55,453 bases of DNA from positions 1-55,453 of the forward strand of contig NZ_PVBR01000029.1 of NCBI RefSeq assembly GCF_002980495.1, given 5' to 3'. Positions 18,166-40,800 of the stretch are shown piece by piece (within the stretch, counting starts at the first letter, position 1; each line of letters opens with the position of its first letter). The notes beneath the pieces are model-generated. The model was not told the origin of the DNA. It did no database searches and saw nothing but the letters and a program-made list of their open reading frames with translations. Source of the stretch: Phyllobacterium phragmitis. GTDB taxonomy: Bacteria > Pseudomonadota > Alphaproteobacteria > Rhizobiales > Rhizobiaceae. A program made the position numbers and the translations under genes.

Positions 18166-19846
18166 ATTTCTGCCGCCCTACCCTGGCAAGCACGATCACC
18201 GGCAATGTGCCGATCAGAACGATGGCAAGGGCGGCGATCGATGCCTCCTCATAGGTTCCGCGCGCCGCCTCGCCGTAGAGATGCGTTGCCAGCGTTTCGA
18301 AGTTGAGCGGCCTGAGCAAAAGCGTTGCGGGCAGTTCCTTCATGCAATCGACGAACACCAGAAGGCCGGCGGCGGCCAGCGCCGCCTTCGACAGCGGCAG
18401 GTGTATTTGGCGGAATGTTCCGGTGGCATTCTGCCCGAGGCTGCGCGCCGCCTGATCGAACGAAATCGGGATCCGGCTGAAACCGGCTTCGGCGGCACCA
18501 GCCGGGATCGCCAGGAACCGCGCGGTATAGGCATAAATGAGCGCAGCACCCGACCCGATCAGCAACAGGCCGGTGGAGAAGCCGAACCAGTCTATCATGC
18601 TGCGGTCGATGAACCGGTCGAGCGCCGCAACCGGGATCAAGATGCCGATGGCGATCACGGTGCCCGGCGCGGCGTAGCCGATGGTCGAAAGTCGGAATGC
18701 GACGCCTGAGAACCTGCCCGGTCGCAACCGCACCGCGTAAGCCGCGATGATGCCGAAAGCCAACACGATCATGGTCGCGACCGCCGACATGATGATCGTG
18801 TTGGCGGCTTCCGAAACGAGTCGCTCCGACAGGCCAGCGGCACGAAAACGCTTCCAGGCTTCGACCGCGAGATAGCTCGCCGGGATGACAAAGCCGATCA
18901 GGACAGGGACGAGGCCGCAGCAAAGGGCCGCCCATCCGGCGAATCCACGGAGCTTTCGCGGCACGAAATTGCGGTTACGCTGGGCAGTCACGGAATAACG
19001 CTGGCGGCGGCGCGCCCAACGCTCGACCACGATGAGGGCAATCACCAGAAAGAGCATGGCGAGCGCGATCTGCGCCGCGCCGGGCAGGTCGGACCGGGTG
19101 ACCCATGTCGTATAGACGGAGACCGTGAGCGTCTTGACGCCGAGGAATTCCGACGCGCCGATGTCGTTGAGCGCTTCCATCAGCGCCAGGGCGACACCGA
19201 CCGCAATCGCCGGCCGCGCCAGCGGCAGGGCGACGCGCCAGAATATGCCGCTCCGCCTTGTCCCGAGCGTGCGGGCCGCCTCGATCAGGTTCGCCGCCTG
19301 CGTCAGGAACATCGCTCGTGTCGTGATATAGACATAGGGGTAAAGTACGAAGCCGAGCAGGATAATGCAGCCCGTCATCGACCGGATATCGGGCAGACGA
19401 AACTCGCGCGGACTGGAATAGCCGAGCACGGCGCGAATCACGCCCTGAAAAACGCCGATCGGATGGAGAATGTCGAGATAGGCGTAGGCGATGATATAGG
19501 TCGGCACGGCGAGCGGCAGCAGCAGCGCCCATTCCATCATGCTGCGGCCCGGGAAATCATAGGCCGTCACCAGCCAGGCGGTGCTGGTGCCGATAAGGAT
19601 CACCAGAATGCCCACGCCGAAAAGCAGCATCAGCGTCTGGGTCAGCGCCGTGGGCAGCACGAAGGCGAAAAGATGCGGCCAGAGATCGCTCGACCCATGC
19701 AGGGCCTGCCAGCCGAGGGCCAGGATCGGCGTCAGCACCAATGCGGCGATGACGGTGGCCATGCATAGCCATAGCCGCCCGACCTTGCGGTGGGCGGCCA
19801 GCATGCGGAAAGAACGTGGCAAGGCGGTATATGTCATCGAAGGCAT
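18161..19846 (-). CDS. fbpB: Fe(III) ABC importer permease, two fused modules
   Basis: 561 residues with about twelve membrane helices in two homologous halves. Each half has the EAA loop that contacts the ATPase: EAARTLGTRRSGIFWRVALP near residue 205 and DQAARSLGQNATGTFRQIHL near 480. This fused architecture is typical of FbpB/SfuB and ThiP permeases; the adjacent binding protein makes iron the likely substrate. I chose the ATG at 19846; a second ATG at 19837 is equally possible, and neither has a strong ribosome-binding site because the hairpin at 19851-19874 lies immediately upstream. Upstream extension to 19942 would overlap fbpA. The C-terminus ends inside the repeat element. Confidence 0.9.
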   Translation of the reverse strand: MPSMTYTALPRSFRMLAAHRKVGRLWLCMATVIAALVLTPILALGWQALHGSSDLWPHLFAFVLPTALTQTLMLLFGVGILVILIGTSTAWLVTAYDFPGRSMMEWALLLPLAVPTYIIAYAYLDILHPIGVFQGVIRAVLGYSSPREFRLPDIRSMTGCIILLGFVLYPYVYITTRAMFLTQAANLIEAARTLGTRRSGIFWRVALPLARPAIAVGVALALMEALNDIGASEFLGVKTLTVSVYTTWVTRSDLPGAAQIALAMLFLVIALIVVERWARRRQRYSVTAQRNRNFVPRKLRGFAGWAALCCGLVPVLIGFVIPASYLAVEAWKRFRAAGLSERLVSEAANTIIMSAVATMIVLAFGIIAAYAVRLRPGRFSGVAFRLSTIGYAAPGTVIAIGILIPVAALDRFIDRSMIDWFGFSTGLLLIGSGAALIYAYTARFLAIPAGAAEAGFSRIPISFDQAARSLGQNATGTFRQIHLPLSKAALAAAGLLVFVDCMKELPATLLLRPLNFETLATHLYGEAARGTYEEASIAALAIVLIGTLPVIVLARVGRQKS

Positions 19847-19850
19847 GACG

Positions 19851-19874
19851 GGCGCCGCAGGTTTGCGGCGCCCG
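19851..19874 (-). terminator. Intercistronic hairpin between fbpA and fbpB
   Basis: A perfect 9-bp stem GGGCGCCGC/GCGGCGCCC with a 6-base loop, starting 10 bp after the fbpA stop and ending 5 bp before the fbpB start. It has no T-tract. Such hairpins behind binding-protein genes usually stabilise or attenuate the message so that more binding protein than permease is made. It would also bury the fbpB start region. Confidence 0.7.
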
Positions 19875-19883
19875 AGCGTCCAA

Positions 19884-20906
19884 TCAGTTGTCGAAGCCGA
19901 CTTTTTCAGCCAGTTCGCTTGCTTCCTTGCGATGCCCGGCAATTGCGGTCAGCGGCACTGGATCGACCTTCAGTTCGCCGAAAGAGGCGATGATCGGATC
20001 GATGGGCGCGCCAGCCTTCACCGGATATTCGAAATTGGCTTCGGCATAAAGCTTCTGTGCCTCGTCGGAGACCAGATATTCGAGAAGCTCGACCGCCTGC
20101 TCCTTGTTCGGCGCATGTTTCGCGACTGCGGCTCCGCTGATATTGACCTGCGTGCCCCCGTCCTTGAATGTCGGCAGGATGACCTTGATCGCATTGCCCC
20201 AGGCAATTTGATCCTCGCCGCCCTTTCCTGAGCGCATCAGCCCGACATAATAGGAGTTGGCGATACCGATATCGCAGATGCCGCCGAGAATATCCTTGGC
20301 CACATCGCGATCGCCGCCGCCGGCCTTGCGCGCCAGATTGTCCTTGACGCCGGTCAGCCATTTTTCGGTCGCCTCGACACCATGATGCGCGATGTAATCG
20401 GCGAACAGCGCTGTGTTGTATGGATGCTGGCCCGAGCGGATGCAGACTTTGCCCTTCCACTTGGGATCAGCCAGATCCTCATAGTTGAAGGCAGCAAGAT
20501 CGAGGTCCTTGGCGGCATAGAGCACGCGGGCGCGCAGCGACAGCGCAAACCAGTTGTTTCCGGCGTCGCGCAGGTTCTCGGGCACCGCGTCACTGAGCAC
20601 CTTGGATTCGACAGGCTGGGTCAGTCCCTTTTCGACCAGATCGACGAGTTTGCCGAAATCAACGGTCATCAGGAGGTCCGCCGGCGAGCTTGCGCCTTCG
20701 GAGGCGACGCGTTCAGCCAGGCCGTCCTTCATGAACACTGTATTGACCTTCACATCGCTCTTGGCGGTGAAGGCGTCGAGCAGCGGCTGGATCAGGCCAG
20801 GCTCGCGCGTCGTGTAGATATTCAGTTCGGCTGCGGAAGCGCCGCTGCCGGCAAGGGCCATTACGCTTCCAAACAGAGCGGTTTTCACCGCAGAAAACTT
20901 GTTCAT
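19884..20906 (-). CDS. fbpA: Periplasmic Fe(III)-binding protein
   Basis: 340 residues. A signal peptide (1-26, ...AGSGASA) precedes the mature start AELNIYTTREPGLIQPLLDAF, the standard opening of FbpA/FutA-type iron-binding proteins. The adjacent tyrosine pair that coordinates ferric iron is present (Y219/Y220 in IANSYYVGLM), and further ligands (Y35-type TTRE region, YNTALFADYI) are plausible. ATG 20906 has AAGGA eight bases upstream; the longer frame to 20999 adds non-signal sequence. It lies between fbpC and fbpB on the same strand, with 114 bp upstream that may hold its own promoter and an operator-like palindrome. Confidence 0.93.
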   Translation of the reverse strand: MNKFSAVKTALFGSVMALAGSGASAAELNIYTTREPGLIQPLLDAFTAKSDVKVNTVFMKDGLAERVASEGASSPADLLMTVDFGKLVDLVEKGLTQPVESKVLSDAVPENLRDAGNNWFALSLRARVLYAAKDLDLAAFNYEDLADPKWKGKVCIRSGQHPYNTALFADYIAHHGVEATEKWLTGVKDNLARKAGGGDRDVAKDILGGICDIGIANSYYVGLMRSGKGGEDQIAWGNAIKVILPTFKDGGTQVNISGAAVAKHAPNKEQAVELLEYLVSDEAQKLYAEANFEYPVKAGAPIDPIIASFGELKVDPVPLTAIAGHRKEASELAEKVGFDN

Positions 20907-20959
20907 GGTGTGGTCCTTTATCATCGGGTTCTGGTTATGGCCGGAGAATGACGAGCCTT

Positions 20960-20972
20960 TGCAATCATTGCA
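20960..20972. promoter_or_regulatory. Palindrome TGCAATCATTGCA in the fbpA upstream region
   Basis: A perfect inverted repeat TGCAAT-C-ATTGCA lies 54 bp before the fbpA start and 22 bp beyond a TTGACT box (20999-20994, minus strand), so it would cover the -10/+1 zone of an fbpA promoter. TGCAA/TTGCA-type inverted repeats recall Fur/Mur-class sites of alphaproteobacteria. The match to any specific regulator is inference. Confidence 0.4.
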
Positions 20973-21020
20973 TCGACCATACATGAGTTGTCCAGTCAAG
21001 TTTATATCCCGGACCCGGTG

Positions 21021-22088
21021 TCATTCCTGTGAAAATGCAAGGACACCACTGGGCTGGATGGTCAGATGGACATGGTCTCCAGGCTTGACCTCGATACGAT
21101 CGGTCGTGCGCATGTAAAGGGGCTCGGCCACTCCATCCAGCTTGATCGCAAGCTGTTCGATTTCTCCCAGGAACGAGCTGTGCCGGATGCGCGCGGGCAG
21201 TCCCTCGCCCGGCTTCGCCAGGCGGAATGCCTGCGGGCGGATGCAGGCGAGCGCCGGGCTTTCCTCGGGCAGACCTAGCGCGGCGGGAAACGCGCCGATG
21301 GCTGTCTCGATCCGCCCGTTGCGGTAGATCCCGGGAATCTTGTTGAAAGGGCAGAAGAACTCAGCCGCATAAAGCGAATTCGGGCGATCATAGATTTCGT
21401 AGCCCGTAGCCGCCTGCACCACGCGCCCCTTCTGCATCAACACGACCCTGTCGCCGGCGGAAAGCGCCTCTTCGGGATCATGCGTGACCATGATGACGGT
21501 CGTGCCAAGCGCCTTGAGCGTGGTGATGGTTTCCTCGCGCACCCGCTCGCGCAGGCCGCGATCGAGGTTGGAGAATGGCTCGTCCATCAACAGGATGCGC
21601 GGCTTCGGCGCAAGCGCCCTTGCCAGGGCCACACGCTGCTGCTCGCCGCCGGACAGCATATGCGGATAGCGCTTTGCGAGCGCTGTGATCCCGATCCGCG
21701 CGATGACCGCCGCCGCCTGCTCCCGCGCTTGCCGGCGCGGCAGTTTCTTCAGGCCGAACGCCACGTTCTCTTCGACCGAGAGATGCGGGAACAGGGCGTA
21801 ATCCTGAAACACGAAACCGATATTGCGGTCTTCCGGCTCGACGAAACGATTGCCCCCCGCGATCTGGGCGCCGCCGAGCAGAATGCGCCCGCTATCGGCG
21901 GTATCGACGCCTGCAATGATCCGAAGAAGCGAGGATTTGCCGCAGCCGGATTGTCCCACAAGGCAGATGATTTCTCCGGGCAGAATCGAGAATGAGACGT
22001 CGTCCAACGCGAGCGTCTCGCCAAAACGCCGGCTGATATGCTCCAGCGTCAGCGCTCCGGCCGCGGTCTCTGCAAGTCCGTGCATCAT
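21021..22088 (-). CDS. fbpC: Fe(III) ABC importer ATPase
   Basis: 355 residues. ABC domain about 12-240 with Walker A GQSGCGKSS, Q-loop FVFQDYALFPHLS, signature LSGGEQQR, Walker B ILLMDEP, D-loop FSNLD and H-loop VTHDPEEAL. A C-terminal TOBE-like regulatory domain covers about 270-355. Highly similar in layout to FbpC/FutC/PotA. Two consecutive ATGs (22088, 22085) follow GAGG; the second has the better spacing. The long upstream extension to 22268 runs through the promoter and is spurious. First gene of the fbpCAB cluster. Confidence 0.92.
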   Translation of the reverse strand: MMHGLAETAAGALTLEHISRRFGETLALDDVSFSILPGEIICLVGQSGCGKSSLLRIIAGVDTADSGRILLGGAQIAGGNRFVEPEDRNIGFVFQDYALFPHLSVEENVAFGLKKLPRRQAREQAAAVIARIGITALAKRYPHMLSGGEQQRVALARALAPKPRILLMDEPFSNLDRGLRERVREETITTLKALGTTVIMVTHDPEEALSAGDRVVLMQKGRVVQAATGYEIYDRPNSLYAAEFFCPFNKIPGIYRNGRIETAIGAFPAALGLPEESPALACIRPQAFRLAKPGEGLPARIRHSSFLGEIEQLAIKLDGVAEPLYMRTTDRIEVKPGDHVHLTIQPSGVLAFSQE

Positions 22089-22131
22089 CGATCCTCTGTC
22101 CGCCGGCGCCATGCGCCGCTGCGAGGTTTGT

Positions 22132-22159
22132 TGATTACTCAAATCAGGTTTAATGTCAA
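22132..22159 (-). promoter_or_regulatory. fbpC promoter with candidate RirA (IRO-type) operator
   Basis: On the minus strand TTGACA (22159-22154), a 16-bp spacer and TAATCA (22137-22132) make a promoter. A TGA-N9-TCA motif, the published iron-responsive operator pattern for RirA in rhizobia, occupies 22132-22146 and overlaps the -10. It is placed exactly where a repressor would act, upstream of an iron uptake operon. The motif is short, so chance occurrence is possible. Confidence 0.55.
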
Positions 22160-22277
22160 AATAGAAAGCGGAGCGTGCTCGGAGTCCGCCTGGAAATGGC
22201 TCAGGCCGAACCGAAAAATGGTGATTTTGCGAGCACCGGAGCGGAGCGTATGGTGGCTCGCTTGCCAATCCTCTTCG

Positions 22278-22949
22278 TCAATCCTCTTCTTCTTCCTCCA
22301 CGGCCTCCATCGTGCTTGGGATGTCGGCCAGGAGTTTCTCCTTGTCGAGCAGCCCCGCATCTTCCAGCTTCTCGATGTCGGGCAGGTCGCGCAGCGTCTC
22401 GAAACCGAAATGCTGGAGGAAGGCATCCGTGGTGATATAGGTATAGGGCGCACCCGGCTGCGGACTGCGCGGACCGGACGCGATAAAGCCCGCGTGGCGC
22501 AATTGTCCGATCGCATCGCGGCTCACCTCGCGTCCGATGAACGTCGAAAGCTCGGTGCGCGTCAGCGGCTGGAAATAGGCGATGGTCATCAGGACGAGCG
22601 CCTGCGCCGGCGACAGTCCCGCCGCTCTTTCATCGATACAGGACGCCGCGCGAATGGCGCCCGCATAAGAAGGCCGCGTGCGATGCTGGAAGCCGCCGGC
22701 CACGCGGACGAGATCATAGGGCCGCATCCGCAACTCCTCGCGGATATCCTCTATCAGGAGATCAATGCTGCAATCGCGCCCGACCAGTTGCTTGAGCACC
22801 TCAACGCCGACAGGCTCGCTCGCCGCGAAGATCACTGCTTCGACGCGGTTCATCCATTCGCGCCAACGGGCAGTGGCCGGCAGATCCAGCAGTTCGCGGT
22901 CGAATGCGTCCTTCAGCTGCGATGTCTTCTCCCGGTCGCGCCACGCCAT
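22278..22949 (-). CDS. scpB: ScpB-like segregation and condensation protein
   Basis: 223 residues. The two winged-helix domains of ScpB are recognisable: RVEAVIFAASEPVGVEVLKQ near residue 35, LSPAQALVLMTIAYFQPLTR near 112, and the conserved ...GAPYTYITTDAFLQHFGFETL. The C-terminus is acidic (VEEEEED). ScpB normally pairs with ScpA and SMC in chromosome condensation. Here the partner is DUF1403, not ScpA, so this is probably the accessory ScpB paralogue that travels with DUF1403 in rhizobia. It starts 3 bp after the DUF1403 stop codon. Its role relative to the housekeeping SMC complex is unknown. Confidence 0.85.
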   Translation of the reverse strand: MAWRDREKTSQLKDAFDRELLDLPATARWREWMNRVEAVIFAASEPVGVEVLKQLVGRDCSIDLLIEDIREELRMRPYDLVRVAGGFQHRTRPSYAGAIRAASCIDERAAGLSPAQALVLMTIAYFQPLTRTELSTFIGREVSRDAIGQLRHAGFIASGPRSPQPGAPYTYITTDAFLQHFGFETLRDLPDIEKLEDAGLLDKEKLLADIPSTMEAVEEEEED

Positions 22950-22952
22950 CTG

Positions 22953-23972
22953 CTAGAGCCCGTAGAGCCGGAAGGTGGATCGGCCCGTCAGTTCGCGCAC
23001 CGCCTCGAGCGAAACCAGACGCTCGAAAAGCCGTCGCAACGCACGGTCGGTCATCGCCTGCCCCGGAAAGGCGCTGACACAGGCCGAGGGCAGCAACGCA
23101 TCGTCCTGAAGCAAGGCCTCGACGATGCGCGCCGACCCCTTGGCGCGCAATTTCGGCGCGACGGTTTTCAATCTTTCCGCCCTGCGCGCAAGGTCGGCGG
23201 CACTATCATAGGCCTCCAGGGCGGCTTGCGCATGGGCGATGAGACATGCCTTGCGCCATCCCTCCTCGCCGATGCGCAGGCGGCGGCGATTGGCACCTGC
23301 CCGGAAGAAAGACTTCTGCGCCTGCGTCACCAGGAGCGGCACCGGCCTTGGCCATTTGAACCGGATAGCCAGCACAAGATCGGCCAGCCAGAAACCGAGA
23401 AGCTCGGCGGGAACGGGCAAGGCCCTGCCGCCCTCGAAAGCCTTCGCAACATATTCGCCGGCCTCTATGGCGGCAAAGGGCCCCTGTTTGCCGGTCTGCA
23501 TCAGCATCCGGATATGGCGCGCTATCTCCCCGAAATCCCGATCCGATTTCAATCCGAAGAATTCCGCGATTGAATTCAGCGATTCCCCGTTTAGCGATTC
23601 CTTGTCGAGTGTCCCCGAATATCCGGCAAGCTTTCGCCAGGCGAGAAGGTTCCTGCCTGCCGGGCCGGGATCGCTGCCGGGCCGGGTGAGACAGACGACA
23701 TCACGAAGCGCTGCCTCCTCTTCCGGTCTGCCGAGGAGAGAAGACGAAGCCGACGCGGCCTTCAGCGCCATGCGGCTGCGCCAGATGCCGGACCAGTCAG
23801 GATCGTCCCGGATAAGGCCGTCCAATGACTGGAGCGCCGCGCCCGCCAGGAAAGCGGCCTCAGCTTCGTCCATCGCCGACAGGTCACGCGCCGCCCGCAC
23901 CCAGAGGGCAGGCGAAGAAGTGGCCGTGGAGGAAACCGGCTTTTCCGAAGCGATCGAGCGCGCATAATTCAT
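22953..23972 (-). CDS. DUF1403 family protein
   Basis: 339-residue alpha-helical protein of unknown function, recognised as DUF1403 from the pattern AAFLAGAALQSLDGLIR near residue 40, GRALPVPAELLGFWLADLVL near 185 and the ending ELTGRSTFRLYGL. No signal peptide or membrane segment. It forms a tight two-gene unit with the ScpB-like gene. No strong ribosome-binding site precedes the ATG at 23972. The pairing with ScpB suggests a part in DNA segregation or condensation, but that is guilt by association only. Confidence 0.8.
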   Translation of the reverse strand: MNYARSIASEKPVSSTATSSPALWVRAARDLSAMDEAEAAFLAGAALQSLDGLIRDDPDWSGIWRSRMALKAASASSSLLGRPEEEAALRDVVCLTRPGSDPGPAGRNLLAWRKLAGYSGTLDKESLNGESLNSIAEFFGLKSDRDFGEIARHIRMLMQTGKQGPFAAIEAGEYVAKAFEGGRALPVPAELLGFWLADLVLAIRFKWPRPVPLLVTQAQKSFFRAGANRRRLRIGEEGWRKACLIAHAQAALEAYDSAADLARRAERLKTVAPKLRAKGSARIVEALLQDDALLPSACVSAFPGQAMTDRALRRLFERLVSLEAVRELTGRSTFRLYGL

Positions 23973-24126: not shown

Positions 24127-25851
24127 TTATTTCTGCCAGCTCTTGACCAGCTCGTCATAATTGACGGTGACGGGCTTTTCCTTTTCGTTCTCGACCTTCA
24201 GCTGAGGCGCGAGATTGCCGTGCTTGACGGCATCGTCATGCCAATATTGCAGATCGTGCTCCTCGGCGAGCTTCGGGCCGATATCGCCCTGAACGCCGGC
24301 GCGTTCGAGGCGCTCCATGACCCTTTCCTGCTCGGCGCAGAGCGAGTCCATGGCTTCCTGCGGGGTCTTCGCCCCCGAAGATGCGTCGCCGATCGCCTGC
24401 CACCAGAGCTGCGCCAGCTTCGGATAATCAGGCACGTTGGTGCCGGTCGGCGACCATTGCACGCGAGCCGGCGAGCGATAGAACTCGATCAGGCCACCAA
24501 GCTCGGGCGCACGCTTGGTGAAGCTTTCATGCCCGATGGAGCTTTCGCGGATGAGCGTCAGGCCCACATGGCTCTTCTTCACGTCGACGGTCTTCGAAGT
24601 GACGAACTGCGCGTAGAGCCATGCTGCCTTGGCGCGATCATCAGGCGTCGATTTCATCAGTGTCCAGGAACCGACGTCCTGATAACCGAGCTTCATGCCG
24701 TCTTTCCAGTAGACGCCATGCGGCGAAGGCGCCATGCGCCATTTCGGCGTGCCGTCCTCGTTGACGACGGGCAGGCCCTTCTTGACGGCATCGGCGGTGA
24801 ACGCCGTGTACCAGAAGATCTGCTGGGCGATATTGCCCTGCGCCGGGACCGGACCGGATTCGGAGAAGGTCATGCCCTGCGCTTCCGGCGGCGCGTAGGC
24901 CTTCATCCATTCGAGATACTTCTCGATAGCATAGACGGAAGCCGGGCCATTGGTATCGCCGCCGCGCGCCACGCAGGAGCCGACGGGACGCGAATCCGCA
25001 TCGACCTTGATGCCCCATTCGTCGACCGGCTTGCCGTTCGGAATGCCCTTGTCGCCATTGCCGGCCATCGAAAGCCAGGCGTCGGTGAACCGCCAGCCGA
25101 GCGACGGGTCCTTCTTGCCATAGTCCATATGGCCGAAGACCTTCTTGCCGTCGATCTCGCGTCCGGTGAAGAACTCGGCAATGTCCTCGTAAGCCGACCA
25201 ATTGACCGGAACGCCGAGATCGTAGCCGTATTTTTCCTTGAAATCGGCCTTGTTCTTCTCGTCGTTGAACCAGTCGTAGCGGAACCAGTAGAGGTTGGCG
25301 AATTGCTGGTCAGGAAGCTGGTAGAGCTTGCCGTCAGGCGCGGTTGTGAACGATTTTCCGATGAAATCATCGATATCGAGACCAGGATTGGTAACGTCCT
25401 TGCCCTCATCGGCCATCCAGTCGGTCAGGTTGCGGACCTGCTGATAGCGCCAATGCGTTCCGATCAGATCGCTGTCGTTGACATAGGCGTCATAGATGTT
25501 CTCGCCCGACTGCATCTGCGTCTGCAGCTTTTCGACGACATCGCCCTCGCCGATCAGATCATGGCTGATCTTGATGCCGGTGATGGCGGTGAAAGCCGGC
25601 GCCAGCACCTTCGATTCATATTCATGCGTGGTGATGGTTTCGGAAACGACCTTGATCTCCATGCCGGCGAAAGGCTTCGCCGCATCGATGAACCATTGCA
25701 TTTCCTTTTCCTGATCGGCGCGCGAAAGCGTCGACAGGTCACCGATTTCCTTGTCGAGAAATTCCTCCGCCTCGTCCATTCCGGCGAGTGCGTTGCCTGT
25801 AGCCAACAGCAGCACGAGCGCCGTTGTCGATGTGAGTAGATGCCGTCGCAT
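24127..25851 (-). CDS. glpV: Glycerol ABC importer, periplasmic binding protein
   Basis: 574 residues. Signal peptide 1-24 (...TGNALA), then a large family-1-type solute-binding protein; the length and motifs (LPDQQFANLYWFRYDWF, WFxDxG-type repeats, GSWTLMKSTPDDRAKAAW) match GlpV of the rhizobial glpSTPQUV glycerol transporter. ATG 25851 has GGGAGGA nine bases ahead. It is the last gene before the terminator, whereas many ABC operons place the binding protein first. Assignment to glycerol rests on the complete synteny glpR-glpD-glpS-T-P-Q-U-V. Confidence 0.92.
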   Translation of the reverse strand: MRRHLLTSTTALVLLLATGNALAGMDEAEEFLDKEIGDLSTLSRADQEKEMQWFIDAAKPFAGMEIKVVSETITTHEYESKVLAPAFTAITGIKISHDLIGEGDVVEKLQTQMQSGENIYDAYVNDSDLIGTHWRYQQVRNLTDWMADEGKDVTNPGLDIDDFIGKSFTTAPDGKLYQLPDQQFANLYWFRYDWFNDEKNKADFKEKYGYDLGVPVNWSAYEDIAEFFTGREIDGKKVFGHMDYGKKDPSLGWRFTDAWLSMAGNGDKGIPNGKPVDEWGIKVDADSRPVGSCVARGGDTNGPASVYAIEKYLEWMKAYAPPEAQGMTFSESGPVPAQGNIAQQIFWYTAFTADAVKKGLPVVNEDGTPKWRMAPSPHGVYWKDGMKLGYQDVGSWTLMKSTPDDRAKAAWLYAQFVTSKTVDVKKSHVGLTLIRESSIGHESFTKRAPELGGLIEFYRSPARVQWSPTGTNVPDYPKLAQLWWQAIGDASSGAKTPQEAMDSLCAEQERVMERLERAGVQGDIGPKLAEEHDLQYWHDDAVKHGNLAPQLKVENEKEKPVTVNYDELVKSWQK

Positions 25852-25927
25852 ATTAGTTCCTCCCAAGAGTTGCGATTGCAGTTTCAGTCCAGCGCCCGCT
25901 TGACGAGCTGGCGCTCATTTCCTCCCC

Positions 25928-26209
25928 CTAGACGTAGCGAAATACGCCGATGGCGTAGACCACGGACAGAGCAAGAGCCCACCACAGATTGGGGCCGACG
26001 AGCCCCAGCCATGCGAGATTTATAAAAGCTGATCCGAGCAGCGAGACAAAAAGCCGGTCGCCGCGCGTCGTCTCGAAGCGCAGAACGCCGACACGCGGAT
26101 TGCCGCCCGGGGAGACATATTCCCAGACCGCCATGCCGACGAGCAGCGCCAGGATCGTCATGAAGAAGATCGCCGTCGGCCAGGTCCAGGCCATCCATGA
26201 GAAATCCAT
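25928..26209 (-). CDS. glpU: Small membrane protein GlpU of the glycerol transporter operon
   Basis: 93 residues with two to three predicted membrane helices (about 11-29, 53-70, 72-90) separated by a basic segment. It starts MDFSWMAWTWPTAIF and ends VVYAIGVFRYV. The start is fixed by a TGATG overlap with glpQ (26209). It contains a conserved DUF2160-like pattern (VWEYVSPGGNPRVGVLRFET). In rhizobia a gene of this type sits between the permease and binding-protein genes of the glycerol system; its role in the complex is not established. A longer open frame through it in the same register extends over glpQ and is not real. Confidence 0.85.
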   Translation of the reverse strand: MDFSWMAWTWPTAIFFMTILALLVGMAVWEYVSPGGNPRVGVLRFETTRGDRLFVSLLGSAFINLAWLGLVGPNLWWALALSVVYAIGVFRYV

Positions 26210-27129
26210 CACACCCTCCCCAGGGCAAAGCCCTTGGCAATATAATTGCGGACGAAATAGATCACCAGCGCGCCGGGAATGATCGTCAGGACACCGGCTG
26301 CGGCGAGCACGCCCCAGTCGAGCCCCGACGCCGAAACGGTGCGCGTCATCGTCGCCGCGATGGGTTTGGCCGCCGTCGTCGTCAGGGTTCTGGCGATGAG
26401 AAGCTCGACCCATGAGAACATGAAGCAGAAGAAGGCCGCGACCCCGATTCCGCTGGCGATGAGCGGCATGAATATCTTGACGAAGAAGCGCGGGAACGAA
26501 TAGCCGTCGATATAGGCGGTCTCGTCGATCTCCTTCGGCACACCGGACATGAAGCCTTCGAGGATCCAGACGGCGAGCGGCACGTTGAACAGGCAATGCG
26601 CGATGGCCACCGCAATATGCGTGTCGATCAGCCCGAACGCCGAGTAGAGCTGGAAGAACGGCAGCACGAACACCGCCGGCGGCGCCATGCGGTTGGTCAA
26701 AAGCCAGAAGAACAGATGCTTGTCGCCGAGAAAGCGGTAGCGCGAGAAGGCATAGGCCGCCGGCAGCGCCGCCAGCACCGAAATCACCGTGTTCATCACC
26801 ACATAGATGATCGAGTTGATATAGCCCGAATACCACGACGGATCTGTAAAGATGACGGCGTAATTGTGCAGCGTCGGCTCGACCGGCCACAGCGAAAAGG
26901 TCGAAAGGATCTCAGCCGTGGTCTTGAAGCTCATATTGATGAGCCAGTAGATCGGCAGCATCAGGAAGATGATGTAGAGCGTCGGGATCAGCCACCAGAA
27001 GCGAGACTGCTCACCGCGCCGGCGCATCGTGCGGGCAAGGGTTGCCTGCGCATCCGGCGGCATGGATGGCGCCTGGCCGAATGAATTACCCTTGCGTTCC
27101 GCCGTAAGCTTGTTCTGTGCGACACTCAT
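26209..27129 (-). CDS. glpQ: Glycerol ABC importer permease (MalG type)
   Basis: 306 residues, six predicted helices after a soluble head of about 45 residues. The EAA motif is present near residue 215 (EIDETAYIDGYSFPRFFVKI). ATG 27129 is one base after the glpP stop, with GGAG about eleven bases ahead; the frame to 27144 adds five residues. Partner of GlpP in the heterodimeric inner-membrane channel. Confidence 0.92.
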   Translation of the reverse strand: MSVAQNKLTAERKGNSFGQAPSMPPDAQATLARTMRRRGEQSRFWWLIPTLYIIFLMLPIYWLINMSFKTTAEILSTFSLWPVEPTLHNYAVIFTDPSWYSGYINSIIYVVMNTVISVLAALPAAYAFSRYRFLGDKHLFFWLLTNRMAPPAVFVLPFFQLYSAFGLIDTHIAVAIAHCLFNVPLAVWILEGFMSGVPKEIDETAYIDGYSFPRFFVKIFMPLIASGIGVAAFFCFMFSWVELLIARTLTTTAAKPIAATMTRTVSASGLDWGVLAAAGVLTIIPGALVIYFVRNYIAKGFALGRV

Positions 27130-27130
27130 C

Positions 27131-27997
<867 letters not shown>

Positions 27998-28000
27998 GGC

Positions 28001-29074
28001 CTATCCTCCCCAAGCCACGCGCCATGAATCGGCGTAGACGTTGATACCCTTAGTGTCGAAAACAATGTGCGGATCGGCGGGAACATCCTCATCCTCGGCG
28101 AGAATGACGGCGATCTCCTGCCCTTCCAGCTGCGTGCGCACGATCTTGTGGCGGCCGATATCCTCGACCTTGGCGATGGAAACAGGCATGCCCTCGCGGC
28201 CAAGCCGCACATATTCCGGGCGTATGCCGAGTTCCATTCTGCCCTTCGCCGCAGGCATATCCGGCGCACCGGGCAGATCGACAGTCTGCCCGCCGAACCG
28301 GGCTTGCTTTCCCTCGATCTCGACGGGCACGACATTCATGCCCGGCGAACCGATGAAATAGCCGACGAATGTATGCTTCGGCCGCTCGAAAAGTTCACTC
28401 GGCGTGCCGATCTGCACGATCTCGCCCTCATACATGACGACGACCTTCTGCGCGAAGGTCAGTGCTTCCGTCTGATCATGCGTGACATAGACCATGGTGA
28501 AACCGAAGCGCCGATGCAGTTCCTTCAACTGCGAGCGTAATATCCATTTCATGTGCGGATCGATGACCGTCAAAGGCTCGTCGAACAGGATCGCATTGAC
28601 ATCGGAGCGGACCAGGCCGCGACCGAGCGAGATCTTCTGCTTCTGGTCGGCGGTCAGACCGCGCGCCTTCTTGTTGACCCAGTCTGCAAGGTCGATCATC
28701 TCAAGGGTTTCGCGCACCTTGCGGTCGACATCGGCTTCGGCAACGCCGCGATTGCGCAGCGGAAAGGCCAGATTGTCGTAAACAGTCATCGTGTCGTAGA
28801 TGACGGGGAACTGGAACACCTGCGCGATATTGCGCTCCTGCGTCGACAGATCAGTGACGTCCTGGCCGTTGAACAATATCTGGCCGTGGGAGGGATGGAT
28901 CAGCCCCGAAATGATGTTGAGCAGCGTGGTCTTGCCGCAGCCGGAAGGGCCGAGCAACGCATAGGCACCGCCGTCCTCCCAGGTGTGATGTACTTCCTTC
29001 AATGCGTAATCGGCATCCGATTTCGGATTGGGCCCGTAGGCATGACGGATATGATCGAGTTCGATGCGCGCCAT
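28001..29074 (-). CDS. glpT: Glycerol ABC importer ATPase with degenerate signature motif
   Basis: 357 residues. UgpC/MalK-like ABC ATPase: Walker A GPSGCGKTT (about 42-50), Q-loop VFQFPVIYD, Walker B ILFDEP, H-loop VTHDQTEAL, and a C-terminal OB-fold regulatory domain (about 240-357). The ABC signature is LTADQKQK where LSGGQ is expected, and the D-loop reads LTVIDPHMK. It can therefore bind and hydrolyse ATP with its own Walker/H residues but supplies a poor signature to its partner. It lies 8 bp downstream of glpS. See the finding on the GlpS/GlpT pair. Confidence 0.92.
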   Translation of the reverse strand: MARIELDHIRHAYGPNPKSDADYALKEVHHTWEDGGAYALLGPSGCGKTTLLNIISGLIHPSHGQILFNGQDVTDLSTQERNIAQVFQFPVIYDTMTVYDNLAFPLRNRGVAEADVDRKVRETLEMIDLADWVNKKARGLTADQKQKISLGRGLVRSDVNAILFDEPLTVIDPHMKWILRSQLKELHRRFGFTMVYVTHDQTEALTFAQKVVVMYEGEIVQIGTPSELFERPKHTFVGYFIGSPGMNVVPVEIEGKQARFGGQTVDLPGAPDMPAAKGRMELGIRPEYVRLGREGMPVSIAKVEDIGRHKIVRTQLEGQEIAVILAEDEDVPADPHIVFDTKGINVYADSWRVAWGG

Positions 29075-29082
29075 GATTCCTC

Positions 29083-30165
29083 CTATGCCGCCAGTTTCTG
29101 GCGGCGGATGACGGAATTGCCGCCCGCGTCGAAGATCATCAGATTGCGCGGATCGAGGGCGAGATCGACGATTTCACCAGCGTTCAATTCATGGACCCCG
29201 CGCGCCAGCATCGACCAGCGCACATTCGCAAAGGCAAGGTGGATATAGCTTTCAGAACCGGTGATCTCGGTGGCGATGATCTTGGCGCGGATGGCGAAAG
29301 CATCCTTTCCGGACCGCTCGAAGGAGAGATGATGCGGCTGAAAACCCATCACATAAGCGCCGTCCTGTATCCCGCGCCAATCCGCCGGAACGGCAAAATT
29401 GATATCGCCCTCCAGATGGAAGGCACCATCCTTCTTTTCGACCGCGATCGTGTTGAGCGGCGGATCGGCGAAGGTTTGCGCGGTGATGAGATCGGCAGGC
29501 TGGCGGAAAACATCGATGGTCCGCCCGAATTGCGTGACACGCCCTTCGGAAAGCGCGGCGGTATTGCCGCCGAGCAGCAGCGCCTCCAAGGGTTCGGTGG
29601 TGGCATAGACGAAGATCGCGCCGGACGCGGCGAAAAGCTTCGGCAGTTCCGCCCGCAACTCCTCGCGCAGCTTATAGTCGAGATTGGCGAGCGGCTCGTC
29701 GAGCAGCACCAGCCTGGCATTCTTGACGATGGCACGGGCGAGCGCCGTGCGCTGCTGCTGTCCACCGGAGAGATTGAGCGGCATTCTGTCGAGATAAGGC
29801 GTCAGCTTCAGGAGTTCCGCGGTCTTGCGCACTTCCCGGTCGATGGTCGCGCTGTCGATGCCCGCAACCCGCATGGGAGAGGCAATATTCTCGTAGACCG
29901 TGAAAGCCGGGTAATTGATGAACTGCTGGTAGACCATGGCGACCGAGCGCTTCTGCACCGGCACGCCCGTTCTATCTTTCCCGTCGAACCACAGTGAACC
30001 CGAAGTCGGCACGTCGAGCCCCGCCATGATGCGCATCAGGCTGGTCTTGCCCGATAGCGTCGGGCCAAGCAGGACATTCAGCGTCCCGTGCTCCAATTTC
30101 AGCGATATATCGCTGAGATGGGTCTTGCCGCCAACGACCTTGGAAACGTTCCGTAACTCCAGCAC
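29083..30165 (-). CDS. glpS: Glycerol ABC importer ATPase lacking the switch histidine
   Basis: 360 residues. ABC ATPase with Walker A GPTLSGKTS, Q-loop MVYQQFINYPAF, an intact signature LSGGQQQR, Walker B LVLLDEP and D-loop LANLDYKLR. The H-loop is YATTEPLEAL, so the catalytic switch histidine is replaced by threonine. The C-terminal regulatory domain spans about 235-360. The start is a GTG at 30165 with a strong GGAGGAGGAG five bases upstream; the frame to 30216 lacks this. It follows glpD by 54 bp and heads the transporter genes. Confidence 0.9.
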   Translation of the reverse strand: MLELRNVSKVVGGKTHLSDISLKLEHGTLNVLLGPTLSGKTSLMRIMAGLDVPTSGSLWFDGKDRTGVPVQKRSVAMVYQQFINYPAFTVYENIASPMRVAGIDSATIDREVRKTAELLKLTPYLDRMPLNLSGGQQQRTALARAIVKNARLVLLDEPLANLDYKLREELRAELPKLFAASGAIFVYATTEPLEALLLGGNTAALSEGRVTQFGRTIDVFRQPADLITAQTFADPPLNTIAVEKKDGAFHLEGDINFAVPADWRGIQDGAYVMGFQPHHLSFERSGKDAFAIRAKIIATEITGSESYIHLAFANVRWSMLARGVHELNAGEIVDLALDPRNLMIFDAGGNSVIRRQKLAA

Positions 30166-30219: not shown

Positions 30220-31776
30220 CTATCTGCTCGCCGCTGCGGCGACTTTTTTCCGCCTTGTGCCCGGATTGCGGACGCCCGTGGCTTGCGCCATGAAATCCGC
30301 AAGCGCCGCCACTTCCTGTGACGTTAGCCGCAAGCCCAGTTTCGTGCGCCGCCACAAAACATCATCGGCAGTCAGCGCCCACTCGTTCTCGATGAGGTAG
30401 CGAACCTCAGCCTCGTAGAGATCTGCGCCGAAATGCCGGCCCATATCCTGATATGAGGTCGTCTCTCCCAGCAATGCGTTGGCCCTCGTTCCATAGAGCC
30501 TGAACAGCCTACGAGCATGTGCTTCATCGAGAAAGGCATATCGTGCCTTGAAGCTGCGCAATTCGGCATCAAACGCCGTCATCGGGAAATCGCCGCCCGG
30601 CAAAGGCACGGACCGCGTCCAGGATGGTCCCTTGGCGCCCAGAAATCCCTCTATCTTCTCCAGCATATGCTCGGAAAGACGCCGATAGGTGGTGATCTTG
30701 CCGCCGAAGACATTGATCAGCGGCGCAGCACTTTCCGACGCATCTTCCTTCAGCACGTAATCGCGGGTCGCCTCCTGCGCTTTCGATGCGCCATCGTCAT
30801 AAAGCGGGCGGACGCCCGAATAGGTCCAGACGATATCGTCTTGGCTGACCGGCTGGCGGAAATATTCACTCGCAGCCGCGCTGAGATAATCGATCTCTTT
30901 TTCACTGATCGCAGCATTTGCCGGATCGCCTTCATAATCCTGATCGGTGGTGCCGATCAGCGTGAAATCATCCTCATAGGGAATGGCGAAGATGATGCGC
31001 CCGTCATTGTTCTGGAAGAAATAAGCGCGCGGATCGTCAAACTTCGTGCGCGTGACGATATGGCTGCCCTGCACCAGCCGGACATTGTGCACGTCCTTTC
31101 CGGCTATTCCCGCGACCACATGATCGACCCACGGCCCCGCCGCATTGACCAGAAGCCGCGCTTCGACCTGCTCCGTGCGGCCGGTAATCGTATCTTCGAC
31201 CGAAATCTGCCACTTCCCGCCGTCGCGGCGGGCTTTCGTCACCTTGGCCCGTGTGCCGATCACCGCGCCCCGGTCGGCCGCATCACGCGCATTCAACGCC
31301 ACCAGGCGGGCATCGTTGACCCAGCAATCGGAATATTCGAACGCCTTGGTGAACAGCGGTTTCAACGGCTTTCCGGCCGCATCGCGGCGCATGTCGAGCG
31401 TGCGCGTCGGCGGCAGCTTCCTGCGTCCGCCGATATGGTCGTAGAGGAACAGGCCGAGGCGCAACAGCCATGCCGGACGCACGCCCCCCTTGTGAAAAGG
31501 CAGGACGAAACGCATGGGATGGATGATGTGCGGCGCGTTGCCCCAGAGCACCTCGCGTTCCATCAGCGCCTCGCGCACCAGCCGGAACTCGTAATGTTCG
31601 AGATAGCGCAAGCCGCCATGGATGAGCTTGGTCGAGCCCGACGACGTGCCGCTGGCAAGATCATTCATCTCGGCCAGATAGACCGAATAGCCGCGCCCCG
31701 CCGCGTCCCGCGCGATGCCGCATCCGTTGATGCCGCCACCGATGACAAAGATGTCATATGTCGGGTTGTCGTCCAC
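30220..31776 (-). CDS. glpD: Aerobic glycerol-3-phosphate dehydrogenase
   Basis: 518 residues. FAD-binding Rossmann motif GGGINGCGIARDAAGRG at about 13-29, then the GlpD hallmark ASGTSSGSTKLIHGGLRYLE, and the C-terminal GlpD domain (about 380-500, RYLIENEWALTADDVLWRRT). It oxidises sn-glycerol-3-phosphate to dihydroxyacetone phosphate at the inner membrane, passing electrons to quinone. I choose the GTG at 31776 (AGAGG seven bases upstream), which starts VDDNPTYDIFVIGGG as homologues do; the ATG at 31869 or TTG at 31896 would place the promoter inside the gene. No glycerol kinase gene lies in the window. Confidence 0.93.
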   Translation of the reverse strand: MDDNPTYDIFVIGGGINGCGIARDAAGRGYSVYLAEMNDLASGTSSGSTKLIHGGLRYLEHYEFRLVREALMEREVLWGNAPHIIHPMRFVLPFHKGGVRPAWLLRLGLFLYDHIGGRRKLPPTRTLDMRRDAAGKPLKPLFTKAFEYSDCWVNDARLVALNARDAADRGAVIGTRAKVTKARRDGGKWQISVEDTITGRTEQVEARLLVNAAGPWVDHVVAGIAGKDVHNVRLVQGSHIVTRTKFDDPRAYFFQNNDGRIIFAIPYEDDFTLIGTTDQDYEGDPANAAISEKEIDYLSAAASEYFRQPVSQDDIVWTYSGVRPLYDDGASKAQEATRDYVLKEDASESAAPLINVFGGKITTYRRLSEHMLEKIEGFLGAKGPSWTRSVPLPGGDFPMTAFDAELRSFKARYAFLDEAHARRLFRLYGTRANALLGETTSYQDMGRHFGADLYEAEVRYLIENEWALTADDVLWRRTKLGLRLTSQEVAALADFMAQATGVRNPGTRRKKVAAAASR

Positions 31777-31912
31777 AGCGCTGCCTCTGAGAGCGAAAAG
31801 CCGCTCCAACTCATTGTTTCTCCACAAGTCCGATGGAAAAGCAGTTCCCCCCTCTTCGGACTTCCCCATCTTTCGCAATGCAGCATTTCTTGCCAATACG
31901 AAAGATGTTGTG

Positions 31913-31950: not shown

Positions 31951-32727
31951 TTAGGGAATTGCAACAGGCGAGGTTTCGATGAGCCGAACCTTGAATTCCC
32001 TACAGATTTCCCGGATGCCAGGATCGAGGCAATGATCGGTGATGAAGGTGTGAACCTGCGAGAGATGGCCGATGCGCACCGGCGCGTTTCGCTCGAATTT
32101 GGTCGAGTCGGAAACCAGGATGACATGGCGGGCATTGGCGATGATGGCCTGCGCCACCTTCACTTCGCGGAAATCGAAATCCAGCAATGCGCCGTCGCGG
32201 TCTATGGCCGAGGTGCCGATGACGGCGAAATCCACCTTGAACTGGCGGATGAAATCCACCGCCGCCTCGCCGACGACGCCGCCGTCGGAGCCGCGCACCA
32301 CGCCGCCCGCGATGACGACCTCCATACCCTGATAGACGCGCATCCTGTTGGCAACATTGATGTTATTCGTAATCACCATCAGCGCCTTGCGGTCCAACAG
32401 TGCCTGGCTGACCGCCTCCGTCGTGGTGCCGATATTGATGAAGAGCGACGCCCCGTCGGGGATGAGCTCGGCCGCGGCCGCGCCGATCCCCTCCTTTTCC
32501 TGCGCAGCGATCTGACGGCGTGCCTCATATTGCAAATTCTCGACACCGGAGGGATAGAGCGCACCGCCATGGATGCGGGTCAAAAGCTGCTGCTGGCAGA
32601 GATCGTTGAGATCCTTGCGGATCGTCTGCGGCGTCACGTTGAAGAGCGCGGCGAGATCATCGACCAGTACCCGGCCCTGCTCCTTGGCCAATTCCAGGAT
32701 TTCGTTATGTCTCGGTGTCAGATACAT
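31951..32727 (-). CDS. glpR: DeoR-family glycerol regulator GlpR
   Basis: 258 residues. N-terminal DeoR helix-turn-helix (about 5-57; VDDLAALFNVTPQTIRKDL), the DeoR motif IHGGA at about 54, and a C-terminal phosphosugar-sensing domain (GTTTEAVSQ, VVRGSDGGVVG). GlpR represses glycerol genes and is released by glycerol-3-phosphate in the characterised relatives. ATG 32727 has GAGGGG three to four bases ahead and gives the standard MYLTPRHNEILEL start; the frame to 32853 adds an implausible head through the promoter. glpD has its own promoter 10-40 bp downstream. Confidence 0.93.
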   Translation of the reverse strand: MYLTPRHNEILELAKEQGRVLVDDLAALFNVTPQTIRKDLNDLCQQQLLTRIHGGALYPSGVENLQYEARRQIAAQEKEGIGAAAAELIPDGASLFINIGTTTEAVSQALLDRKALMVITNNINVANRMRVYQGMEVVIAGGVVRGSDGGVVGEAAVDFIRQFKVDFAVIGTSAIDRDGALLDFDFREVKVAQAIIANARHVILVSDSTKFERNAPVRIGHLSQVHTFITDHCLDPGIREICREFKVRLIETSPVAIP

Positions 32728-32739
32728 TTTCCCCTCGGA

Positions 32740-32800
32740 CTTTCGTTTTTCCCACTGAGAATAGATACGAAAGCCGAAAAAGAAAATGGCCTTTCGTAGC
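32740..32800 (-). promoter_or_regulatory. glpR upstream region with inverted GlpR-like sites
   Basis: TACGAAAG at 32766-32773 and CTTTCGTA at 32791-32798 form a perfect 8-bp inverted repeat with a 17-bp spacer, and CTTTCGTTTTT starts at 32740. The same half-site lies in the glpD promoter, which suggests autoregulation. No certain -35/-10 pair can be named. Confidence 0.5.
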
Positions 32801-32803
32801 GCG

Positions 32804-32908
32804 TCAGTCGTCGCGGTCCCGGCCTTCATGGCGAATGACGGCGACATAGGCAATCAGCACCACGATCACAGGCACGATGATGAAGGCGAGCATCCAGGTT
32901 CCATCCAT
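32804..32908 (-). CDS. 34-residue single-helix membrane microprotein
   Basis: ATG at 32908 overlaps the stop of the upstream gene as TGATG, and the frame runs 34 codons to TGA at 32804. The product begins MDGTWMLAFIIVPVIVVL, has one clear membrane helix (about 6-24) and ends in a charged tail (RHEGRDRDD). The overlap, composition and hydrophobic pattern argue that it is real although it is too short for most gene finders. The layout recalls small respiratory-complex or stress microproteins, but no family is recognised. It sits just upstream of glpR on the same strand. Confidence 0.65.
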   Translation of the reverse strand: MDGTWMLAFIIVPVIVVLIAYVAVIRHEGRDRDD

Positions 32909-37875: not shown

Positions 37876-40800
37876 TCACCATTTGACTTTGAAGCCAAGG
37901 TTTCCTGAGACGCTATAGCTATCGGCGAAGTCTTCAACGCCGGTTCTGGCCGCGAGTTTTGCGAACATGCCATACTGGCCGTCGCTCCAGTTATAGGTGC
38001 CGCCGGCGCCGATCTCGGCCCAGACCTTCTCCTCCGTCGTGGTGAAGCGCTCGCCCGAGACGCTCCATTTGTTGCGACCGAGGAACTCGCGATGGATGCT
38101 GGCTATGCCGTAGAGATCGCTCTGGCGGGTGAAGCCGGCATCGTCCTGCCAGGCGCTCTGGAAATTGGCTGATATGCCGAGGCGTCCGGTCAGGCTGTCG
38201 GGCCTGTCATAATCGACCCTTGCGCCATAGGGATCGCTGAAGCCATCGAGGCCGAGCGTGGCGTAGGTGACCTGAAACTGCGGCGTCAGCGTCCAGTTCT
38301 CGTCGATCTCGATACGCTGGCCGCTTTCGGCGCTCAGCACATAACCAAGCGTCTTGTCGCCGTCGAGGACGCTGCGGCGCAGGGTCGACGAGGTCAGGTC
38401 ATTGTCGAACCAGGTGACCTGGCCCTGCGCATCGAGATAATAACCGGCATTGTCATACCAGGTCAGCGCACCGCCGATGCCGGTGCCGCCGACCTCCATC
38501 GTGCCATGGCCGTAATAGGAGGCGATATCGGCCGTGGCGGTGCCGTAATTGACCCAGACGCTGCCGATCAGCCTGCCGCGCTCGCTCTCATAGAACTGAC
38601 CGTCGATGCCGGCCTCGAGCTTCCAGCTGTCGATGTCGTATTCGGCACCGCTGACCGACTGGTCGAGCCGGTAGTGGCCATGCGCCGCGTCGATGCGGCT
38701 CCAGATCATTCCCGCCTCGGTCAATGCGACCGGGCCCGGCTCGGTAAAGCTGGGGCCGTCTCCTTGCGCGATCGGCGCATAGGCGGCGCCGCTCCAATAG
38801 CGGTTGCCGGCACGCTCCTGTAGGGTGGAGACGGTGTTGAGGCGGGCCAGCACCTGACCATAGGCCTCATACAACGGCGTGCCCGGTTGCGGCGCATATT
38901 CGCTGCGCAGGTACCAGTCGCCGTCGCCGGGCGTGGCGATGCCGTTCTTGTGCAACGTATAGGCATAGGCGCCGCCGATGACCGCGCTCTCGCCGTCTTT
39001 GGTGGTGTAGTCGCCGATAAGCGTGAAGCTGCCGTCGGACTGGCCGTCGATATCGATGATCTTGATGCCGGCATTCGTCCTGGCGCCGAGCCCGCCCCGG
39101 TTGATCACCTGCACATGGCTCTCACCCGAGGTGTCGCCTGCGATCACCAGCCGGTCGGTGGGCGAATTGTCGCCGCCGAGTACGGTGTTGAGCCGGATGA
39201 GACCACCTTGACCGGCATAGTCGCCATTGATGGTCAAAGTGCCGATGTCCTTGCCGCCGTTGCCGCCGGGGGCGATGACGCCTGCATTGACGGTGCTGCC
39301 GACCGGGCCGGTGCCGGAGAGTTGGCCGCCGGCAAGCACGTTCATCGTGCCGCCGAGCATCTGATCGATCTGCAGCGTGCCGGCCCGGATATTGGTGGTG
39401 CCGGTGAAGCCGGAATTATCGGCCGACAGGATGGTGGTGCCGCTGCCGATCTGCTCCAGCGTACCGCCGCCTGAGAGAAGATTGTCGGCGGTGAACATAT
39501 CGGAGCGGTTGAAGGCGAGCAGGCCGTCGATGATGATGCCGCCCTTGACGCTGCCCGACGTGCCGCCATTGCCGATCTGCAATGCCGCGCCTTCAGCGAT
39601 ATGGGTGCCGCCTGTGTAGATGTTGTCGCCCGACAGGATCTGCCTGCCGCCGGTGATATCAAGACCGCCATTGCCGTCGACGACGCCCTGGAAATCGTCA
39701 TTCTGCGCGGCGGTGACGGCAAGCCCCTTTTCGCCGAGATGGACGCGGCCGTCCGGCCCGCCCGACAGGCCCTTGATGCTGGTCATGTCGGCATCGATGC
39801 CTGTGATGTCGAAGGTGCCGTCGGCCGTCACCCCGCTCGCCGCGCTGATGTCGCCGTCGCCGACGAGCTTCAGCACATTGCCGTCGTCGATGACGGCGCG
39901 GCTGGTGAAGCCCTGTTTCGAGTCGATGAGGCCGGTGCCGCCGCCCATCTGCACCAGTGAACCGTCGCCGGTCATCTGGTTGATGCGGTATTCGCCGGAG
40001 AGGTTGTAGATCAGCACGCCCTCGTTATCGATCGGATCGGCGACACTGCCCGAGGTGCCGCCATCGCCGATCTGCAATGTGCCGTCATCGCCGATCACCG
40101 TGCCGCCCGCATATTTATTGGTGCCGGTCAGCGTCTGATGGCCGCCATTGACGGAAAGGCCGCCATCACCCGTGATGACGCCGGCAAAGGCATCCTTGCC
40201 ATTGGCGATGATCAGATCCTTGCCGCCGAGGATCACTTCGCCACTCTCGCCGCCGGCCAGGCTCTGTATCGTCGTCTGCGGGCCGTCGATGGCCGATATG
40301 TCGAATGTCGTGTCGGCCTTGACGCGGTTCGACTGCTCTACGCTGCCGCCGCCGGCAAGCTTCAGCACACCGTCCTCGATGTCGGTGTCGCCGGTATAGC
40401 CGGCTGCGCCCGTCACTGTCGTCGTGCCGGAGCCCGCCTGGGTGAGCTTGCCCCCGCCGGAGACCGCACCGAGCGTCACCGCGTCGGCGTGCTTGATGAT
40501 CAGCTCGGTGCCGTCGGCCAGCGCCACGGGGCCGTCGATGCTGCCCGAGGTACCGCCATTGCCGATCTGCAGCACGCCCGCATCGACCGAGGTGCCGCCC
40601 TGATAGTCGTTGTCACCGGCGAGAATCAGCGTGCCGTCGCCCGCCTTGGTCAGCCCGCCATCGCCGGAGATGACGCCGGAAAGCATGTTGTTGTTGTCCA
40701 TCGTGTCGATCGTGCCGTTGCCGTCGCCGAGCGTCATATCGCGGACGCTGTCGAACGACGCGCCATATTGAAGCGTGCCGCCGTCGATGGTCAGCGGCCC

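Follow-up and report, generated by a model that had tools for sequence, protein, structure and literature searches.

GlpS and GlpT, the two MalK-type ATPases of a glycerol import operon in Phyllobacterium phragmitis, carry complementary changes in their ABC motifs. An earlier note on this DNA had predicted that together they form one canonical and one degenerate composite ATP site, and by sequence 134 of 136 GlpS/GlpT pairs fit this prediction. We consider it highly probable that the two proteins pair as an obligate heterodimer beneath the GlpPQ permease, in which one site hydrolyses ATP and the other is degenerate.

The glycerol operon in the window

The window, that is, the whole stretch of DNA analysed (55,453 nucleotides), corresponds to contig C29 in a genome of 5.6 Mb. 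The operon lies on its minus strand, and its gene order, glpR-D-S-T-P-Q-U-V with a DUF2160 gene, is that of the Rhizobium leguminosarum glycerol importer (GlpSTPQUV).

31951..32853, minus strand: GlpR-like DeoR-family regulator (open reading frame as listed; the real start is possibly internal)
30220..31896, minus strand: GlpD, glycerol-3-phosphate dehydrogenase, above the NCBIfam cut-off
29083..30165, minus strand: GlpS, MalK-type ATPase, GTG start, open frame
28001..29074, minus strand: GlpT, MalK-type ATPase, open frame
27131..27997, minus strand: GlpP permease, BPD_transp_1
26209..27144, minus strand: GlpQ permease, BPD_transp_1
25928..26212, minus strand: GlpU, small membrane protein, DUF2160
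24127..25866, minus strand: GlpV, periplasmic binding protein, SBP_bac_8

Judged from gene order and DUF2160, the system is a member of the GlpSTPQUV glycerol importers, and glycerol is its presumed substrate. PMC7912956 describes a cluster of this type as driving ATP-dependent glycerol import in R. leguminosarum VF39, and reports the C. metallidurans cluster as dispensable for growth on glycerol. A plasmid copy in R. leguminosarum bv. trifolii shares the lesions of the window system, in GlpS as well as in GlpT. In that copy glpK follows glpV, whereas the only glycerol kinase above the NCBIfam cut-off in the window genome is on contig C7, away from the glp operon. The closest named GlpT relative among the matches listed was that of Phyllobacterium salinisoli (94%).

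Several other features of the window were recorded. A DUF1403 protein (22953-23972, minus strand) adjoins a ScpB-domain protein (22278-22949, minus strand), and this gene pair separates the glycerol operon from another importer at 18161-22268, which consists of an SBP_bac_6 binding protein, a permease with two BPD_transp_1 stretches and a TOBE_2 ATPase. An exporter-like cluster (13161-17064, minus strand) has an ABC-2 membrane protein, a double-ABC protein and an HlyD-type protein in a row. At 37876-44148 (minus strand) lies an autotransporter-like protein of 2090 aa with 14 passenger-associated (PATR) repeats and an autochaperone domain.

Motifs of GlpS and GlpT

The motif coordinates of both ATPases were verified by translation.

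30133..30135, minus strand: GlpS A-loop position, Val in place of Tyr/Phe/Trp
30043..30066, minus strand: GlpS Walker A, GPTLSGKT, Lys retained
29749..29772, minus strand: GlpS signature, LSGGQQQR, intact
29695..29700, minus strand: GlpS Walker B Asp-Glu, catalytic Glu (E157) retained (context DEPLANLD)
29677..29688, minus strand: GlpS D-loop, ANLD, canonical
29596..29598, minus strand: GlpS Thr190 at the switch-histidine position (H-loop YATTEPLEAL, 29578-29607)
29036..29038, minus strand: GlpT A-loop Tyr13
28928..28951, minus strand: GlpT Walker A, GPSGCGKT
28634..28657, minus strand: GlpT degenerate signature, LTADQKQK
28577..28582, minus strand: GlpT Walker B Asp-Glu (Glu is E166)
28559..28570, minus strand: GlpT altered D-loop, TVID (context DEPLTVID)
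28478..28480, minus strand: GlpT switch His199 (H-loop YVTHDQTEAL, 28460-28489)

Translation thus confirmed what the earlier note had read in GlpS, namely Walker A/B and LSGGQQQR with the H-loop histidine replaced (YATTEPLEAL), and in GlpT, namely Walker A/B and the H-loop kept, LTADQKQK in place of the signature and an altered D-loop. To this we add a lesion absent from that note, the missing A-loop aromatic of GlpS, and a point to which it gave no stress, namely that GlpS retains its catalytic Walker B Glu.

Both proteins matched PF00005 (ABC_tran) above the cut-off, with the Walker residues retained. The C-terminal OB/TOBE regulatory domain of MalK-type ATPases was recognised in both: that of GlpT scored above the cut-off for PF17912; the GlpS C-terminus had no Pfam match at 0.001, but its predicted model aligned to MalK chains over ~360 columns. 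The predicted models (pLDDT 84.6 for GlpS and 83.1 for GlpT) matched MalK-type structures over nearly their full length, with TMq values of 0.87 (GlpS) and 0.83 (GlpT) against MalK 1q12_A. At these motifs the MalK-type PDB sequences (three in each of two listings) were ungapped, with SGG and THD. Neither protein reached the cut-off for UgpC proper (NCBIfam NF008653, 432 bits), GlpS scoring 241.9 and GlpT 288.1 bits.

The Q-loops also differed after the conserved Gln, reading YQQFINYP in GlpS and FQFPVIYD in GlpT. Both are highly conserved and unlike each other and the MalK paralogues, and they may reflect the matching of each ATPase to its own permease.

Conservation of the pattern

The comparison covered 136 GlpS/GlpT pairs (133 distinct), namely the window and 135 operons, made up of the best 80 GlpT loci of a longer list and 55 DUF2160 loci from a phylum sample. 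The genome survey was conducted within Pseudomonadota, and the Sinorhizobium meliloti glp operon (L199) was left out of the protein comparison. DUF2160 was found in 56 of the 299 phylum-sample genomes (the window's own included), spanning 36 genera and 16 families, and in none of 14 control genomes; GlpV was present in the same 56. At all 135 fetched loci GlpS and GlpT were neighbours, with GlpP and GlpQ in the same operon.

At the switch-histidine position, GlpS had Thr in 132 pairs, Ser in four and His in none, and GlpT had His in all 136. The GlpS signature kept SGG in 135/136, the exception being a frameshifted gene (L084). No GlpT signature had SGG: its second Gly was replaced by Asp throughout, its first by Ala (131) or Pro (5), and the Ser position held Thr (120), Ser (13), Ala (2) or Gly (1), with the first signature residue and the Gln position freely variable. 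The D-loop Asn position was Asn in every GlpS and Val in every GlpT. Tyr was invariant at the GlpT A-loop, and the same position in GlpS was non-aromatic in 134 of 136 (Val 125, Ile 3, Ser 3, Met 2, Ala 1), with one Phe and one gap completing the set. GlpS retained Walker B Asp-Glu in 136/136 and both the Walker A Lys and the Q-loop Gln in 135/136. LSGGQ and the switch histidine did not occur together in one GlpS or GlpT chain in any of the 136 pairs. The earlier note had proposed checking whether both substitutions co-occur in orthologues; all 136 pairs carried both, and independent loss was not seen.

Scored per pair, all four lesions (GlpS A-loop, GlpS switch His, GlpT signature and GlpT D-loop) fell in 134/136 on the site formed by the GlpS Walker motifs and the GlpT signature, and the opposite site was complete. 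In the same 134 pairs the degenerate site kept Lys, Gln and Asp-Glu. The two exceptions were the frameshifted gene and the GlpS with an aromatic A-loop. The former, in a Mesorhizobium sediminum draft, has its GlpS frame split in two and the remaining operon present; the latter (L115, genome G262) is the sole GlpS with an aromatic residue, Phe, at this position.

Thinning to 75% identity left the picture as it was, with Asp for the second Gly in 28/28 GlpT, Val at the D-loop position in 28/28, and Thr in 34/37 or Ser in 3/37 GlpS. Operons of Caballeronia (Betaproteobacteria), Azospirillum and R. leguminosarum had the same pattern, and glpSTPQV homologues are reported in a Halomonas, a gammaproteobacterium, in PMC4597393. 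On the basis of amino acid identity, the GlpT family looks sharply bounded among the best 60 of 2346 plasmid records, where identity drops from 58.7% to at most 45.6%. Read across these alignments, the lesion pattern is neither chance nor decay.

Other MalK-type ATPases

As a base rate, we scored 27 MalK-type paralogues of the window genome, matched at E 1e-40 or better. All 27 kept SGG, the switch His, the Glu and a Tyr or Phe in the A-loop, which was scored in this first sample; their D-loop position held Asn (18) or Ala (9). Among the 29 same-genome matches, GlpS and GlpT were the sole adjacent pair. A second sample of 30 loci retrieved through OB_MalK, two of them repeating the first (L211, L227), gave 29 classified loci, the fragment L226 being unclassified. 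Two were GlpT orthologues, and the remaining 27 kept signature and His. In a third sample of 29 loci with 30 ATPases, His was present in 30/30 and SGG in 29/30; seven of these loci repeat the second sample (L249, L255, L258, L259, L268, L269, L271) and one repeats the first (L256). By sequence, then, nearly all other sampled MalK-type ATPases keep these motifs.

Asymmetry proved not to be general among tandem MalK pairs, as three loci had His in both chains (L231:6445-8660, L232:5837-8373 and L270). Their signatures read LSGGDMQR or LSGGEMQR, with LAGGDRQR in one L270 chain. Separately, four importer operons (L234-L237) combined a short, incomplete DUF2160 match with one canonical MalK-type ATPase, and they may be symmetric relatives of the glycerol system.

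A second asymmetric pair and the origin of the pairs

A second asymmetric tandem MalK-type pair was met in another operon, and all eight loci examined showed its pattern. They come from S. meliloti pSymB, Shinella, NGR234, S. americanum, Gemmobacter and three further genomes, and include L243, L245, L246 and L247 as well as the following:

L233, 5538-7792: second pair
L241, 6001-8240: second pair
L242, 5001-7240: second pair
L244, 4995-7228: second pair

In 8/8 loci chain a had LSNGQ, Asp for the catalytic Glu (DDP) and Gln for the switch His (VTQD). Chain b had ISGGQ and kept Glu and His, with Glu replacing the Q-loop Gln and the D-loop Asp. The changes did not all lie on one composite site. 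Glu-to-Asp together with His-to-Gln is the TM287 pattern. In the annotated or scanned contexts (L233, L241, L242 and L244) the pair was accompanied by permeases and a 2-hydroxyacid dehydrogenase. A sugar kinase and a class II aldolase are annotated beside it in all of these but L233, and a GlpD-like protein occurs in all but L242. This second pair was rarer, occurring in 3/299 phylum genomes (E 1e-75 or better) and 20 plasmid records (1e-70), five of which were examined.

The relationships of the four chains were analysed with two trees, both with long stems throughout. The first comprised 37 GlpS and 28 GlpT (thinned at 75% identity, with the frameshifted GlpS taken out) and all 27 paralogues. 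GlpS and GlpT each formed a single clade (100/100), and a weakly supported branch (85/27) put both on one side, an arrangement seen in 90% of 200 bootstrap trees. The second comprised 13 GlpS (every third), 14 GlpT (every second), 19 of the 27 paralogues (omitting six flagged as long and two more), chains a and b (4/8 each), both L231 chains and two single-ATPase outgroups. Here chain a grouped with GlpS (99/94) and GlpT stood apart from them; GlpS, chain a and GlpT came together in 0% of 200 bootstrap trees. Approximately unbiased (AU) tests nevertheless did not reject the grouping of these three (p-AU 0.303), that of GlpT with chain b, though the two were apart in the second tree (p-AU 0.365), or that of all four chains (p-AU 0.293). 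With the joint groupings not rejected, the asymmetry may have been invented twice or may go back to a single ancestral pair.

Since the GlpS/GlpT pattern is invariant in the sampled operons, it was established before these operons separated. Its conservation shows selection to keep one ancestral state and not repeated co-loss. We are evenly divided on whether asymmetric MalK-type importers with a single catalytic site constitute a class of their own, built around a lineage without the switch His (GlpS and chain a) that always has a different MalK-type partner. If they do, some CUT1 importers would use one hydrolysis event per stroke, unlike MalK.

A probable single-site mechanism and its alternatives

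Each site of an ABC dimer pairs the signature of one chain with Walker A/B and the A-, Q- and H-loops of its partner, as set out in PMC7756269, and a complete site would therefore arise solely in a GlpS-GlpT heterodimer. By motif content, a hypothetical GlpT homodimer would be without a signature at both sites, and a GlpS homodimer without the switch His and the A-loop aromatic at both.

In the mechanism that we infer, GlpS and GlpT would pair obligately beneath GlpPQ. The hydrolytic site would comprise the A-loop Tyr, Walker A/B and switch His of GlpT with the LSGGQ of GlpS, and the degenerate site would have the GlpS Walker A/B facing LTADxKQK and TVID of GlpT. The latter probably still binds nucleotide through its retained Lys, Gln and Asp-Glu, would hydrolyse it poorly or not at all, and could act as a hinge holding both ATPases together. 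Docking of loaded GlpV would then close the dimer on one hydrolysable ATP and move one glycerol. With Lys, Gln and Asp-Glu still in place, the second site most likely binds nucleotide without hydrolysing it fast, a state that reviews describe for exporters. The abstract of PMC7544095 names loss of the catalytic Walker B residue as a hallmark of degenerate sites; GlpS does not show it, having Glu in 136/136, and some activity may therefore persist at the second site. Coherence of the lesions on one site is weak evidence by itself, because four elements each lost in a random chain would all fall on one site in 1/8 of cases by simple arithmetic. The D-loop, moreover, sits at the centre of the interface according to PMC7756269, which makes its assignment to one site weak, and 9 of the 27 paralogues also depart from Asn there, with Ala.

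The nucleotide state of the second site admits other readings. It might be nucleotide-free, with GlpS structural and its sole catalytic role the supply of LSGGQ for GlpT's ATP, as the absence of the A-loop aromatic in 134/136 GlpS and of SGG in the opposite chain would allow. Residues that would be needless in an empty site are nonetheless kept (Lys and Gln 135/136, Asp-Glu 136/136), and we regard this reading as rather unlikely; as it is a version of the heterodimer model, its odds overlap those of our best explanation. We give less credence still to hydrolysis at both sites with the help of compensating residues, for example KQK in GlpT or Thr-Glu in GlpS. The catalytic Glu in 136/136 GlpS and the conservation of several substitute residues speak for it, but four separate contact elements are altered together, and the switch His was replaced in no other sampled MalK-type ATPase except the second asymmetric pair.

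MalK-type ATPases usually form homodimers whose two sites are identical and canonical, and GlpS and GlpT might accordingly form separate homodimers, perhaps for different permeases. That arrangement is very improbable, because a GlpT pair would lack the signature and a GlpS pair the switch His, and because the two genes are adjacent in 135/135 loci with one glpP and one glpQ. An artefact or decaying genes, to which the frameshifted GlpS of draft locus L084 might point, is scarcely credible given a highly conserved pattern common to 133 distinct pairs, and a pseudogene or sequencing-error reading was ruled out on the same ground. The preferred reading continues to be a heterodimer with one hydrolytic and one degenerate, probably nucleotide-binding, site.

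Relation to known systems

GlpS and GlpT share fold, Walker motifs and operon type with MalK/UgpC/SugC-type CUT1 ATPases. Those form homodimers with identical sites, whereas GlpS and GlpT are unlike chains predicted to build one complete site. By sequence they resemble the exporters TM287/288, TAP, TmrAB and BmrCD, which have one consensus and one degenerate site; GlpST differs from these in working as an importer together with a binding protein, in its MalK-type C-terminal domain, and in keeping the Walker B Glu at the degenerate site. Mycobacterial Opp/Dpp systems are possibly asymmetric as well.

The earlier note had called such asymmetry unexpected for a MalK-like importer. This was fair, with the qualification that importers with one degenerate site exist: RbsA and NupO, described in PMC11466899, are alike in this respect, but they are type II systems with two fused domains, whose lesions include loss of the Walker A Lys in the second domain, whereas GlpS and GlpT are unfused MalK-type chains and both keep theirs. 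E. coli DppDF is an importer with two different ATPases and, in its structures, a nucleotide analogue at one ATPase only. According to PMC12136057 the motifs of both ATPases are functional and activity survives either single Glu mutation, and DppDF was dropped as a precedent for sequence degeneracy for the former reason. Degenerate sites are thus known in exporters and in fused RbsA-type importers. A literature search, which covered titles, abstract openings and passages of papers outside subscription and in two cases the first 20 of 31 and the first 20 of 100 matches, found no report of one in a MalK-type importer, a negative that is weak evidence of novelty.

A MalK-type importer that is reported as functional in R. 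leguminosarum appears to have kept one crippled site in the alpha- and betaproteobacteria that carry it. GlpST would offer a natural single-site version for testing whether one or two ATPs are used per import stroke, and it may represent an importer counterpart to the asymmetry of TAP- and CFTR-like transporters.
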